This document shows, in pieces, positions 44,368-50,203 of a DNA stretch of 64,000 bases (positions are counted from its first letter, which is position 1; each line of letters begins with the position of its first letter). The notes under the pieces were generated by a model. The model did not search any database. It was not told the origin of the DNA and worked only from the letters and a program-made list of their open reading frames with translations. The translations under genes were made by a program, and so were the position numbers. The stretch comes from Dehalococcoidia bacterium (lineage in GTDB: Bacteria > Chloroflexota > Dehalococcoidia > Bin125), in the NCBI GenBank assembly GCA_022826965.1, contig JAJDTU010000005.1:558001-622000 (forward strand). The letters are read 5' to 3'.

Positions 44368-44417
44368 CGCCACGCTCCCCACTCCCCCCGCAGACGGGGG
44401 CCTGTAGGACGAATGTG

Positions 44418-45767
44418 ATGCCCCAGTACCACATCTGGACCGTAGGCTGCCAGGTCAACACCGCCGATTCCGCCAAACTGGCGGCCGGCCTCCGACGCCT
44501 CGGCATGGACCCCACCGACCAGCCCCGAGACGCCGACCTCATCGTCCTCAACACCTGCGCCGTGCGTCAGCACGCCGAGGACAAGGCCCAGGCCAAGCTC
44601 GGTTCGCTCAAGCACCTCAAGCGCTCCAACCCCGACCTGCGTATCGCCGTCATGGGTTGCATGGTCGGACCGCACACCGCCCGTGGTGACGACGCCATCG
44701 TCAAGCGTTTCCCCTTCGTCGACACCTGGGCCCAGCCCCAGCGCTTTGACCAGGTCGTCAACCTGCTCGACTTGCCCGGGATGCTGGGCGTTCCGGAACC
44801 AGAAGACGACGGCGGCGAATTCTGGCCAGAGATCTTCCCTGATGAGACCCGTCCGGCCGCATTCGTCCCCGTCATCGAGGGCTGCGACAAGTTCTGCACC
44901 TACTGCATCGTCCCCCTCCGCCGCGGCCGCGAGCGTTCCCGTCCGATCGACGAGATCGCCCGCGAGGTCGAAGCCCACACGCAGCGAGGCGTCCACGAGG
45001 TCACCTTGCTCGGCCAGACCGTCGAGGCCTACGGCAAGGACCAACCCCCGGTCGCCGCCAACACCGATCACGCCGACCTCTCCGACCTCATGCGCGCAAT
45101 CCACTACCTGCCCGACCTTCACCGCATCCGCCAGCTCACCAGCTACCCGCCCGACATGACCGACCGCATCCTCGAAGGCATGGCCGAGCTGCCCAAGGTC
45201 TGCGAAGCGTTCTCCCTCCCTGTCCAGGCCGGCTCCGACGACGTCCTCACCAACATGCGCCGCGGTTACAGCGTCGCCCAGTTCCGCAACCGCGTCGACA
45301 AGGTGCGCTCGCTCTGGCCCGATGTCAGCATCTCCACCGACGTCATCGTCGGCTTCCCCGGCGAAACTGAGTCCGACTTCCAGGACACCTACGACCTGCT
45401 CGAAGAACTCCGCTTCGACAAGGTCCACGTCGCCGCCTATAGCCCCAGAACCGGCACCTTCGCCCAGCGCAACCAGCCCGACGACGTGCCCCACGAGGTC
45501 AAGATGGAGCGCCTCCACCGCGTCGAGGATCTGCAGCGCCAGATCTCGTTCGAGATCAACAACCGCTACCTGCTCGCCGATGTCGAAGTGCTCCTCGAAT
45601 CGACCAAGCCCTCGGACCTCGAAGGCATGGAGCGCCACACCGGCCGAACCCGAACCATGAAACTGGTCCACTTCGACGCGCCGATTGGCCAGCATCGCCC
45701 CGGCGACATGCTCACCGTCTCCGTCACCCGCGTCGGCGCTTGGAGCCTGCAGGGCCGGCCCGCCTGA
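44418..45767 (+). CDS. miaB: tRNA-2-methylthio-N6-dimethylallyladenosine synthase
   Basis: Radical-SAM methylthiotransferase acting on A37 of tRNAs that read UNN codons. 449 residues from ATG 44418. The three N-terminal cysteines are visible: C11 in WTVGCQVN, then NTCAVR and MGCM, which bind the auxiliary cluster. The radical-SAM motif is CDKFCTYC (about residue 157). A TRAM domain closes the protein (GRTRTMKLVHF...PGDMLTVSVTRV). It lies 50 nt after tRNA-Ser; nrtR follows after 27 nt. Confidence 0.94.
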   Translation: MPQYHIWTVGCQVNTADSAKLAAGLRRLGMDPTDQPRDADLIVLNTCAVRQHAEDKAQAKLGSLKHLKRSNPDLRIAVMGCMVGPHTARGDDAIVKRFPFVDTWAQPQRFDQVVNLLDLPGMLGVPEPEDDGGEFWPEIFPDETRPAAFVPVIEGCDKFCTYCIVPLRRGRERSRPIDEIAREVEAHTQRGVHEVTLLGQTVEAYGKDQPPVAANTDHADLSDLMRAIHYLPDLHRIRQLTSYPPDMTDRILEGMAELPKVCEAFSLPVQAGSDDVLTNMRRGYSVAQFRNRVDKVRSLWPDVSISTDVIVGFPGETESDFQDTYDLLEELRFDKVHVAAYSPRTGTFAQRNQPDDVPHEVKMERLHRVEDLQRQISFEINNRYLLADVEVLLESTKPSDLEGMERHTGRTRTMKLVHFDAPIGQHRPGDMLTVSVTRVGAWSLQGRPA

Positions 45768-45794
45768 GAGCGCCCAACAACGAAGCGCGAAACG

Positions 45795-46469
45795 ATGACC
45801 ATCGAGTCGGCACCAGCACCCCAAGCAACGGCCGCCGCAGCGCGCCGACCGTCGGTCGCCGTGTTGGTCGTCATCTTCACCGTCGTCGACAGCGCGCTCC
45901 AGGTGCTCTTGATTGAGCGCTCCGCACCGCCGGCCGAGGGTCATTGGGCAATCCCCGGCGGCGCGCTCCAGCACGGCGAGTCCCTCGATCAGGCCGCCGT
46001 CCGCAAGCTGGCCGAGGAGACCGGCGTCACCGACGTCTTCCTCGAACAGCTCTACACCTTCGCTGACCTCGACCCCGCATCCAACGACGGCAGCGTCGGC
46101 GTCGCCTGGTTCGCCCTCGTGGACCCGGCTCGCGTCCGACTGGCCCAGCGCACCGCCTGGCGCCCGGCCTGGTGGAGTCTCGACGACATCCCGCCACTCG
46201 CTTTCGACAACGAGCGCGTGATCGACGTGGCCCGCGATCGACTGATCAACAAGCTGCAGTACACCAACGCCGCCTACTCGCTCCTCCCCGAACACTTCAC
46301 CATGCGCGAGCTGCAGGAGGTCTACGAAGCGATCCTCGGTCGCCCGCTGGACAAGCGAAACTTCCGCCGCCGCCTGCTGGCCACCGACTTCATCGCAGCC
46401 ACTTCCGAGCAGCGCGCCGAAGGCCCGCATCGTCCGGCCCGCCTCTACCGGTTCACCAGTCGAAGCTGA
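45795..46469 (+). CDS. nrtR: NrtR-type Nudix-related NAD-biosynthesis regulator
   Basis: 224 residues: an N-terminal Nudix-like domain and a C-terminal winged helix (about residues 145-220: FTMRELQEVYEAILGRPL and NFRRRLLATDFI), the NrtR arrangement. The Nudix box reads GALQHGESLDQAAVRKLAEE, where the first Glu of the consensus REUxEE is Lys, which fits a sensor (ADP-ribose binding) rather than an active hydrolase. It lies directly upstream of nadA-nadB-nadC, with a palindromic site between. Known NrtR proteins repress such genes and are released by ADP-ribose. Confidence 0.88.
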   Translation: MTIESAPAPQATAAAARRPSVAVLVVIFTVVDSALQVLLIERSAPPAEGHWAIPGGALQHGESLDQAAVRKLAEETGVTDVFLEQLYTFADLDPASNDGSVGVAWFALVDPARVRLAQRTAWRPAWWSLDDIPPLAFDNERVIDVARDRLINKLQYTNAAYSLLPEHFTMRELQEVYEAILGRPLDKRNFRRRLLATDFIAATSEQRAEGPHRPARLYRFTSRS

Positions 46470-46556
46470 AAAGCAGCGACCGCCTTCGTTATGTCGAGAC
46501 GCCATTGCTCCACGTTTCGCAAAACCCTCTCTTGACAACCCCCATCCAGATTTGCA

Positions 46557-46592
46557 ACACTATTTGAGATTGATAGTGTCAACCTGACACTA
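46557..46592 (+). promoter_or_regulatory. Candidate NrtR operator with three half-sites
   Basis: A perfect palindrome tagtgtca-acc-tgacacta (46574-46592) sits 24 nt before the nadA ATG. Directly upstream, acactat (46557-46563) forms a second inverted pair with atagtgt (46573-46579). So three acacta-type half-sites lie in 36 nt. A ttgaca at 46532-46537 may be the -35 box; I see no strong -10, so the promoter is not defined. Confidence 0.7.
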
Positions 46593-46615
46593 AGTAACCG
46601 GTCTGAGAGCCCAAC

Positions 46616-47833
46616 ATGACTGAAGCCACCGTCGTCGAGACCGACTTCGTCCCCGAGATTCTCCCGCCCAACCTGCCCGACGAAGCCTGCGAGACCGACA
46701 TCGCAACCATCCCACTCGTCTCCGAGCCTCACCTGCGCGACTGGCAACCCGAAATCCCACAGGCATACCTGCAACTCTCGGGCGATGAACTGCGCGAGCG
46801 CATCCGCGCGGCGCGAGCCGAGCTGGGCGATCGCCTGCTGATCCTCGGCCACCACTACCAGCGCGACGACATCATCGAGTTCGCCGATTTCCGCGGCGAC
46901 TCGTTCAAGCTCGCCCAACAGGCCGCCGAGAACTCCGAGGCCGACTACATCGTCTTCTGCGGCGTCCACTTCATGGCCGAGAGCGCCGACATCCTCACCA
47001 CGCCCCAACAGACCGTGGTCCTCCCCAATCTCGCCGCCGGTTGCTCGATGGCCGACATGGCCCAGCCCGAGGATGTGTACGACGCCTGGGACGACCTCGG
47101 CGAAGTCGTCGACACCGACCGCGTCATCCCCATCACCTACATGAACTCCGCCGCCTCGCTCAAGTCGTTCGTCGGCAAGAACGGCGGCGCCGTCTGCACC
47201 TCGTCGAACGCCACCGCCGTACTCGAATGGGCCTTCCAACAGGGCGACCAGGTCCTCTTCTTCCCCGACCAGCACCTCGGCCGCAACACCGGCAAGCGCC
47301 TCGGCATCGACCCGAAGACCCAGACCGCCGTCTGGAGTCCCCGCAAGCTCAACGGCGGCCTCACCGAAGAGACAATCGAGCAGAGCAGGATCCTCCTCTG
47401 GCAAGGACACTGCTCGGTCCACATCCGCTTCCGCGTCGACCAGATCGAACGCGCCCGCGACGAACACCCCGGCGTGCGCGTCGTCGTCCACCCCGAATGC
47501 ACCCAGCAGGTCGTCGACGCCGCAGACGCCGACGGCTCAACCGAGTTCATCATCAACTACGTGCGCAACGGCCCGCCCGGCGTCTACGCGGTCGGTACCG
47601 AGATCAACCTCGTCCACCGTCTCAATGAAGAGGTCGCCCACGAAGGCAAGACCGCCTTCTGCCTCGACCCCGTCGTCTGCCCCTGCGCCACCATGTACCG
47701 CATCCACCCCGCCTACCTGGCCTGGGTGACCGAAGCGTTGGTCGAGGGACGGGTCGTCAACCCGATCGTCGTCGACGACGACACCCGCAAGTGGGCCCGC
47801 GTCGCCCTCGATCGCATGCTGGCTATCACCTAA
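46616..47833 (+). CDS. nadA: Quinolinate synthase
   Basis: [4Fe-4S] enzyme condensing iminoaspartate with dihydroxyacetone phosphate. 405 residues, with an N-terminal extension of about 60 residues compared with the short forms. Cluster-ligand regions are YIVFCGVHFMAES, a segment near TSSNATAVLEW (with AVCTSSNA), and LDPVVCPCATMYRI near the end. LILGHHYQRDDI is the conserved N-terminal substrate region. First gene of nadA-nadB-nadC. Confidence 0.94.
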   Translation: MTEATVVETDFVPEILPPNLPDEACETDIATIPLVSEPHLRDWQPEIPQAYLQLSGDELRERIRAARAELGDRLLILGHHYQRDDIIEFADFRGDSFKLAQQAAENSEADYIVFCGVHFMAESADILTTPQQTVVLPNLAAGCSMADMAQPEDVYDAWDDLGEVVDTDRVIPITYMNSAASLKSFVGKNGGAVCTSSNATAVLEWAFQQGDQVLFFPDQHLGRNTGKRLGIDPKTQTAVWSPRKLNGGLTEETIEQSRILLWQGHCSVHIRFRVDQIERARDEHPGVRVVVHPECTQQVVDAADADGSTEFIINYVRNGPPGVYAVGTEINLVHRLNEEVAHEGKTAFCLDPVVCPCATMYRIHPAYLAWVTEALVEGRVVNPIVVDDDTRKWARVALDRMLAIT

Positions 47834-47840
47834 TCCACAC

Positions 47841-49343
47841 ATGCGCGCGCCCAAGCACGTCCTCGTCATCGGCAGCGGACTGGCCGGCATCAACGCCGCC
47901 CTCCTGGCCTCCGACTTCGCCGACGTCACCCTGATCAGCAAGTCCTCGCTCGAGCAAACCAACACGCAGCGAGCCCAGGGTGGCATCGCAGCGGCGATCA
48001 CGTTGCTCGACGACCCCGAAATCCACGCCGCAGACACCATCCGCGCCGGCGCCGGACTCTGCGATCCCCTCGCCGTTGCAACCCTCACCAGCGAAGCCAG
48101 AGCGGCCATCGATCGCCTGGTCGGCCTCGGCGTGCAGTTCGACCAACGAACCGACGGCCACCCTGCCCTCGCCACCGAGGGTGCGCACTCAATTCCTCGC
48201 GTGCTCCACGCCGGCGGCGATCAAACCGGTCTGCACATCCAGTCCGCGCTGATCCAGCGGCTCGAGGAGGCCAGAGTCAATGTGCGCACGGGCCTGACGG
48301 TCGCAGACCTCGCCATCGACGCCGGGCGCTGCGTCGGTGCGGTCACGGACAAGCACGAGACGTTGCTGGCCGACGCCGTCCTGCTCGCGACCGGCGGCGC
48401 CGGCGCCCTCTATCGAACCACCACCAATCCCGCCAACGCAACCGCCGACGGTCTCGGCCTCGCCGCTCGTGCCGGCGCAGTCCTGCGCGATCCCGAGTTC
48501 GTCCAGTTTCATCCCACCGCCCTGGTCGGCGACGACAGCGCCTTCCTCATTTCCGAAGCGCTCCGCGGCGAGGGCGCAGTCCTCCTCGACGCCAACCGCA
48601 ACCGCTTCATGCCCGCCGTCCACCCGGACGCAGAGCTCGCTCCCAGATCGGTCGTCGCCCGCGCAATCACCGAGTCGATGCGCGCCCACGACTCGGACCA
48701 CGTCTGGCTCGACATCTCCCATCTCGACGCCGACTACCTGCAGCAACGATTCCCGGGCGTCTACCGAGGCGCCCTCGAGCGGGGACACGACATCACCGGC
48801 GGTCCGATTCCCGTCGCGCCGGCCGCCCACTATCACATGGGCGGCGTCTACACCGACGTCGACGGCCGCACCACCGTCCGCGGGCTCTACGCCGCCGGCG
48901 AATGCGCCTCAACCGGCGCGCACGGGGCAAACCGCGTCGCATCCAATTCGCTGCTTGAGGCCGCAGTGTTCTCGGCCCGCGCCGTCAACGCGATCCGCAA
49001 TCACTCCGCACCAGCCGACCAACCGACTGGCGTCGTTCGTTCCTTGAGGTTGCACCCCCACTGCAGCGCCCCGACATTCAAATCGCTGCGCGCCGCGATG
49101 AACCAGCACGTCGGCATCACTCGTGACGCCCACGGCCTGAAATCCGTGCTCTCCCAGTTCGACGAATGGTCGGGAACCAGCTCAAGCGATCCCTCTCTGG
49201 CACTCGCCACGTTGAGCGCCCGTCTGATCACCGAAGCCGCGCTCCAACGAACCGAGTCCCGCGGCTCCCACATCCGGCTCGACTATCCCGACGTCGATCC
49301 GGCCTGGCAGCGAAGCAGCCTCTGGCAACTGGCCCGAGAATGA
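47841..49343 (+). CDS. nadB: L-aspartate oxidase
   Basis: FAD enzyme giving iminoaspartate to NadA. 500 residues, 7 nt after nadA. Rossmann motif GSGLAGINAALLAS, flavin-region NTQRAQGGIAAAI, substrate-loop HYHMGGVYTDVDGRTTV and GLYAAGECASTGAHGANR are those of the NadB/SdhA family. The C-terminal helical domain is shorter than in E. coli. Overlaps nadC by 4 nt. Confidence 0.95.
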   Translation: MRAPKHVLVIGSGLAGINAALLASDFADVTLISKSSLEQTNTQRAQGGIAAAITLLDDPEIHAADTIRAGAGLCDPLAVATLTSEARAAIDRLVGLGVQFDQRTDGHPALATEGAHSIPRVLHAGGDQTGLHIQSALIQRLEEARVNVRTGLTVADLAIDAGRCVGAVTDKHETLLADAVLLATGGAGALYRTTTNPANATADGLGLAARAGAVLRDPEFVQFHPTALVGDDSAFLISEALRGEGAVLLDANRNRFMPAVHPDAELAPRSVVARAITESMRAHDSDHVWLDISHLDADYLQQRFPGVYRGALERGHDITGGPIPVAPAAHYHMGGVYTDVDGRTTVRGLYAAGECASTGAHGANRVASNSLLEAAVFSARAVNAIRNHSAPADQPTGVVRSLRLHPHCSAPTFKSLRAAMNQHVGITRDAHGLKSVLSQFDEWSGTSSSDPSLALATLSARLITEAALQRTESRGSHIRLDYPDVDPAWQRSSLWQLARE

Positions 49344-50203
49344 CCGCGCTTGACCTCAACGTCGTGCAACGCCTCGTTGACGCTTCCCTCGCCGAGGACC
49401 GCGCCGACCTCGATCTCACCACCGGTTCGCTGAGCAAGTACATCGACTGGCGCCAGGGCAACGCCCAACTCGCCGCTCGCGCAGACGGCACCATCTGCGG
49501 ACTCGATTTCGCCCTCGCCGCCTTCGCCGCGCTCGACCCCGACGTCCGCTTCCTCCCCGAAGTCAGCGACGGCGACCACGTCTCCGCCGGCCAGACCATC
49601 GCCGTCGTCGGCGGTCAACTCGACCCGCTCCTGCGCGCCGAGCGCACCGCGCTCAACTGGTTGCAACGACTGAGCGGCGCAGCGACCATCACGGCTCGCG
49701 CCGTCGCCGCTGCCGGTACCCGCACCAGGATCCTCGATACCCGCAAGACCACGCCCGGCCTGCGCGCCGCCGAGCGCTACGCCGTCCGCTGCGGCGGCGG
49801 TCTCAACCACCGCGACTCGCTCGCCTCCGGGGTCCTCATCAAGGACAACCACATCGCCGCTGTTCGCCTCGCCGGCGGAACCCTCGGTGACGCCGTCCGC
49901 ACCGCGATCGCGCACGTCGGACCCGCCACCGGCGTAGAGGTCGAAGTGACCAACCTCGACGAGGCCCGTGAGGCGCTCGACGCCGGAGCCGGCGCCCTCC
50001 TGCTCGACAACTTCGCGCTCGACGATCTCTCCCCCGCGGTCGAAGTCGCACGCGTCTACAACGCCAAAACCGAAGCCAGCGGCGGAATCACCATCGAGCA
50101 AATCCCCGACATCGCCCGAGCCGGAGTCGACTTCATCTCCCTCGGAGCCCTGACCCACTCCGCCCCCGCCCTCGACATCGCCCTCGACATCGACGCCGGC
50201 TAG
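49340..50203 (+). CDS. nadC: Nicotinate-nucleotide pyrophosphorylase (carboxylating)
   Basis: Converts quinolinate to nicotinate mononucleotide. ATG 49340 overlaps the nadB stop; 287 residues. Signatures: ERTALNWLQRLSGAATIT, ILDTRKTTPGLRAAERYAV with the active-site Lys/Arg set, and FISLGALTHSAPALDIAL at the C-terminus. Longer upstream readings are the nadB shadow. Completes the de novo NAD block. Confidence 0.95.
   Translation: MTALDLNVVQRLVDASLAEDRADLDLTTGSLSKYIDWRQGNAQLAARADGTICGLDFALAAFAALDPDVRFLPEVSDGDHVSAGQTIAVVGGQLDPLLRAERTALNWLQRLSGAATITARAVAAAGTRTRILDTRKTTPGLRAAERYAVRCGGGLNHRDSLASGVLIKDNHIAAVRLAGGTLGDAVRTAIAHVGPATGVEVEVTNLDEAREALDAGAGALLLDNFALDDLSPAVEVARVYNAKTEASGGITIEQIPDIARAGVDFISLGALTHSAPALDIALDIDAG

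Follow-up and report, generated by a model that had tools for sequence, protein, structure and literature searches.

The palindrome at positions 46574 to 46592 of the window (the whole 64-kb stretch of DNA analysed here) is, judging from sequence comparison, almost certainly an operator at which NrtR would act on the nadABC operon. We are highly confident that a single operator, suited to one NrtR dimer, would control the nadABC promoter, and that the third "half-site" proposed in a first-pass annotation is the −10 region of that promoter and not a protein site. The intergenic gap between nrtR (45795–46469) and nadA (46616–47833) is 146 nt. It contains, on the forward strand and as the annotation described, a perfect 8-3-8 palindrome consisting of TAGTGTCA (46574–46581), acc and TGACACTA (46585–46592), with the core TAGTGT-N7-ACACTA. 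Among 5000 dinucleotide shuffles of the gap, 0.24% gave an 8-3-8 repeat and 1.5% gave any 8-(0..12)-8 repeat; the palindrome is thus rarer than chance. Ten perfect 8-3-8 palindromes are however found across the 64-kb window, and the real evidence for the operator is therefore its conservation and not its perfection.

The product of nrtR, encoded on the forward strand, has the architecture of the NrtR family, a Nudix-like domain (PF00293 NUDIX, 9.6e-17) followed by the NrtR winged helix (PF21906 NrtR_WHD, 5.5e-27). Its best match in the PDB is 5bs6, the NrtR-family protein AraR (8.6e-39), and it also matches 3gz5 (3e-34), there called a MutT/nudix family protein; both align with it over nearly the entire length. 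We take 3gz5 and 3gz6 to be Shewanella NrtR. In the Nudix box, read from the translation, RK stands in place of the catalytic RE (GALQHGESLDQAAVRKLAEETGV; RKLAEE against REUxEE), so that the catalytic glutamate is lost, and 3gz5 carries the same RK change. The score against NF050029 ("ADPR responsive transcriptional repressor") is 155 bits, under the cut-off of 400 bits, but this model is a narrow equivalog rather than a definition of the whole family and the shortfall does not decide NrtR membership. Loss of catalytic residues from the Nudix box is described for non-catalytic NrtR regulators in the available excerpt of PMC4666351, which also gives ADP-ribose as the effector of Shewanella NrtR and reports its complex with a 27-bp DNA. 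Downstream, also on the forward strand, lie nadA (quinolinate synthase; PF02445, 1.5e-94), nadB (L-aspartate oxidase, 47841–49343; TIGR00551, 502 bits, cut-off 452.75) and nadC (quinolinate phosphoribosyltransferase, 49340–50203, start chosen by eye; TIGR00078, 267 bits, cut-off 198.4).

The palindrome upstream of nadA is kept in G017 and in all 15 genomes of the same genus, that of the window among them, while three further members of the family (G016, G018 and G019) have it as a TCGTGT...ACACGA version. Among the 13 ungapped sequences of the genus, none of the 12 core bases varies. Of 20 family genomes, 19 contain the pattern TNGTGTCN5GACACNA and none its reversed control; the one genome without the pattern (G015) is 79% complete and has no NadA match. 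A survey of 61 genomes identified 28 with NrtR (at least 212 bits, the next best matches scoring at most 56 bits) and 51 with a NadA match, and the region upstream of nadA was examined in 50 of the latter, G023 being left out. Allowing one mismatch at most, the core site T.GTGT-N7-ACAC.A is present before nadA in 27/27 NrtR-bearing genomes, against 0/23 of those lacking NrtR. The Fisher value for this contrast (9e-15) overstates independence, since the core motif was loosened when most of these sequences were already known and the genomes share ancestry. Seventeen of the 23 NrtR-lacking genomes have a more distant NadA, which makes the six that share the long NadA yet lack NrtR (G021, G033, G041, G047, G048 and G055) the closest comparison; none of these six has the core site. 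The core is perfect in G049 (TAGTGTACTTAGTACACTA), a genome fetched after the pattern was set, and weak in G020 (p ~0.01 against shuffles). A search for 8-N7-8 palindromes upstream of nadA in 80 named loci gave only arbitrary GC-rich matches among the 37 loci listed, which were those with an nrtR match above 90 bits. This is due in part to the search having disallowed the non-palindromic outer bases of the operator; even in L063, the locus of a relative whose NadA is 94% identical to that of the window, the known site escaped it.

The site is retained upstream of nadA when the two genes are separated, nrtR being about 937 kb from nadA in G051 and on a different contig in G035, G043, G049, G052 and G054. 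This persistence favours a site recognised by the NrtR protein over a feature that travels with the nrtR gene. It also bears on the idea that the palindrome is the operator of another regulator which happens to share the distribution of NrtR; the adjacency of nrtR and nadA in much of the family, together with the co-occurrence of the site and NrtR where nrtR is unlinked, makes this extremely unlikely. We thus find a palindrome upstream of NAD genes that is conserved and co-occurs with NrtR, the pattern by which an NrtR operator would be recognised. The protein is an NrtR and the site follows it from genome to genome, and the annotation's placing of an NrtR operator in this gap is well supported as a prediction.

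An RNA hairpin in the nadA leader could be the main function of the palindrome instead. Its sequence is compatible with hairpin formation, the leader folds into an 8-bp stem-loop, and the change from TAGTGT/ACACTA to TCGTGT/ACACGA in other genera keeps the pairing. Such symmetric changes are however equally expected of the DNA site of a dimer, and the inner pair is broken in 4/19. The presence of the palindrome tracks NrtR, as the counts given above attest, and the same motif precedes other genes in relatives. We regard a predominantly RNA role as highly improbable and retain the assignment as a DNA operator.

Conserved promoter-like elements are located upstream of the operator. The −35 box TTGACA (46532–46537, forward strand) sits 41–43 nt upstream of the operator start in 19/19 family genomes with the nadA operator. 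In each of the 19, TTGACA is followed at a distance of 17 or 18 nt by a hexamer whose second base is A and whose sixth is T. In the window this is part of an extended −10 element, TGC-AACACT (46553–46561, forward strand; hexamer 46556–46561), with an 18-nt spacer; the variants across the 19 genomes are AACACT, AACAAT, AAGAAT, AAGACT, GACACT, GATACT, GATAAT and CACACT. In the 13 ungapped members of the genus A2, A4 and T6, which match the −10 consensus, are invariant, as is the non-consensus A1; positions 3 (C/G) and 5 (C/A) and the two bases that follow the hexamer vary. The hexamer of the window is poor, with three of six consensus bases, and a generic scan requiring four of six in the −10 reported no sigma-70 promoter, so the promoter call rests on conservation. 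An A eight nt after the hexamer is also invariant in the 13 sequences and, from spacing only, is the likely transcription start (46569, forward strand).

The second inverted pair described in the annotation is indeed present, with 7-nt arms, ACACTAT (46557–46563) and ATAGTGT (46573–46579), 9 nt apart. It had been taken to mean a three-half-site operator at which NrtR dimers use the palindrome or the upstream pair, or both cooperatively. The nearest species has the upstream arm in the same position, and tandem NrtR-family sites giving two shifted bands are known for AraR in the excerpt of PMC4666351. The orientation of the extra arm is however everted relative to the operator (ACACTA...TAGTGT rather than TAGTGT...ACACTA), and an NrtR dimer built for TAGTGT-N7-ACACTA would therefore not be expected to fit the pair. 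ACACTAT shares five bases with the −10 hexamer, and its invariant columns are those of the hexamer; we reread it as the −10 plus two bases (forward strand). The half-site positions −16, −14, −12 and −11 vary while −10 positions 2, 4 and 6 are fixed, and in 6/13 ungapped genus members hexamer position 5 has changed from C to A, which makes a better −10 but a worse half-site. In shuffled flanks, a 7-nt stretch matching the palindrome in one orientation or the other turns up close by in 5.7% of cases, and the rate is 13.6% when it may lie anywhere in the gap; the extra arm is thus no rarer than would be predicted by chance. The phylogenetic footprint of the nrtR–nadA gap thus divides the earlier proposal: the palindrome is kept throughout the genus, but ACACTAT is exact in only 4/15 genomes and its variation follows the −10. 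The alternative leader hairpins that had also been suggested are not supported, as ACACTAT lies upstream of the predicted start at about 46569 and would not be expected in the leader; when it was included in the folding, the 8-bp palindrome hairpin formed and ACACTAT stayed unpaired. Alternative dimer positions at this pair are very unlikely, and the extra half-site most likely belongs simply to the promoter.

True tandem sites occur in sister genera, and there the second one is elsewhere. In G018 and G019 (L020 and L019) a second full operator, AAGTGTCACCTTGACACTT, lies 53 bp upstream of the main nadA site, and in G016 (L021) the equivalent site, TCGTGTCGGCTTGACACGA, lies 52 bp upstream; in all three the −35 TTGACA forms part of the upstream operator. 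In the window's genome (G000) the best candidate around the −35 differs at 6 of 12 positions, and the genus as a whole retains TTGACA but without the remainder of the upstream operator. On this comparison binding of two dimers is plausible for the sister genera and not for the window.

The family contains 26 strict sites, 20 of them upstream of nadA and six elsewhere. In G018 and G019 the operator motif is found just upstream of nadE (TCGTGTCAGAATGACACGA, L181:1565–1583, and TCGTGTCATCATGACACGA, L182:1644–1662), which at these loci encodes NAD synthase plus CN_hydrolase; G019 has one further strict site besides those at nadA and nadE. In G017, TAGTGTCCAATAGACACTA (L185:1684–1702) precedes an ADP-ribosylglycohydrolase gene (PF03747) by some 15 bp, which may connect NrtR with enzymes making its effector. 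The sister species G007 and G006 have an operator-like site (L183:1406–1424 and L184:1605–1623) that is conserved between both and followed after about 33–34 bp by a second similar site. These sites adjoin a dienelactone-hydrolase-like gene; on the opposite side lies an ARPP-1 gene in one of the two species, a VWA-domain gene in the second. When the whole G000 genome was scanned with the loose core at one mismatch, the reversed control gave more sites (59) than the core itself (19), which leaves no basis for claiming a second operator there; only the nadA site stands out.

According to the available excerpt of PMC6800001, Mycobacterium smegmatis resembles the window in having nrtR beside nadABC and a palindromic operator between nrtR and nadA. 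The arms are separated by N7 in both (GTTTTCGA-N7-TCGAAAAC for MsNrtR, TAGTGT-N7-ACACTA here) but the half-site sequence differs. MsNrtR is described there as an autorepressor, whereas in the 28 genomes examined the 500 bp preceding nrtR never contain an NrtR operator. We note that miaB (window 44415–45794), on the same strand, ends 27 nt before nrtR, and nrtR may therefore be cotranscribed with miaB and not autoregulated. Bacteroides AraR shares the wHTH/Nudix architecture of the window's NrtR; from the excerpt of PMC4666351 it is sugar-responsive and has tandem sites binding two dimers, in contrast to the one site seen here. The window's site appears to be an ordinary NrtR operator whose half-site is specific to the lineage. 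Our literature search found no paper recognisable by its title or the start of its abstract as dealing with NrtR operators in Chloroflexota; a Chloroflexi collection forms part of RegPrecise 3.0.

ADP-ribose is the effector of several studied NrtR proteins. By analogy with this family, one NrtR dimer would bind the palindrome, approximately +6 to +24 from the predicted start, and once bound would block RNA polymerase from using TTGACA / TGC-AACACT; a NAD metabolite such as ADP-ribose would then release NrtR from the operator. Whether control extends further is more tentative. We think it possible, at somewhat under even chances, that NrtR in this Chloroflexota family jointly controls the making of NAD and the handling of ADP-ribose, through nadABC, in some species nadE, an ADP-ribosylglycohydrolase and an ARPP-1 gene, and that the number of sites at the nadABC promoter has changed during evolution; this would include the operator pair of the sister genera, in which one operator has the −35 box as one of its halves.

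The comparison corrects a plausible over-reading, in which a look-alike of a half-site within a −10 element was taken for a protein site, and it provides a usable NrtR operator consensus for an uncultured Chloroflexota lineage. The natural one-site and two-site promoters of sister genera offer a system for testing how operator number tunes NAD synthesis. The palindrome itself fits the usual switch, in which NrtR would shut off synthesis of NAD, the vitamin B3 cofactor.
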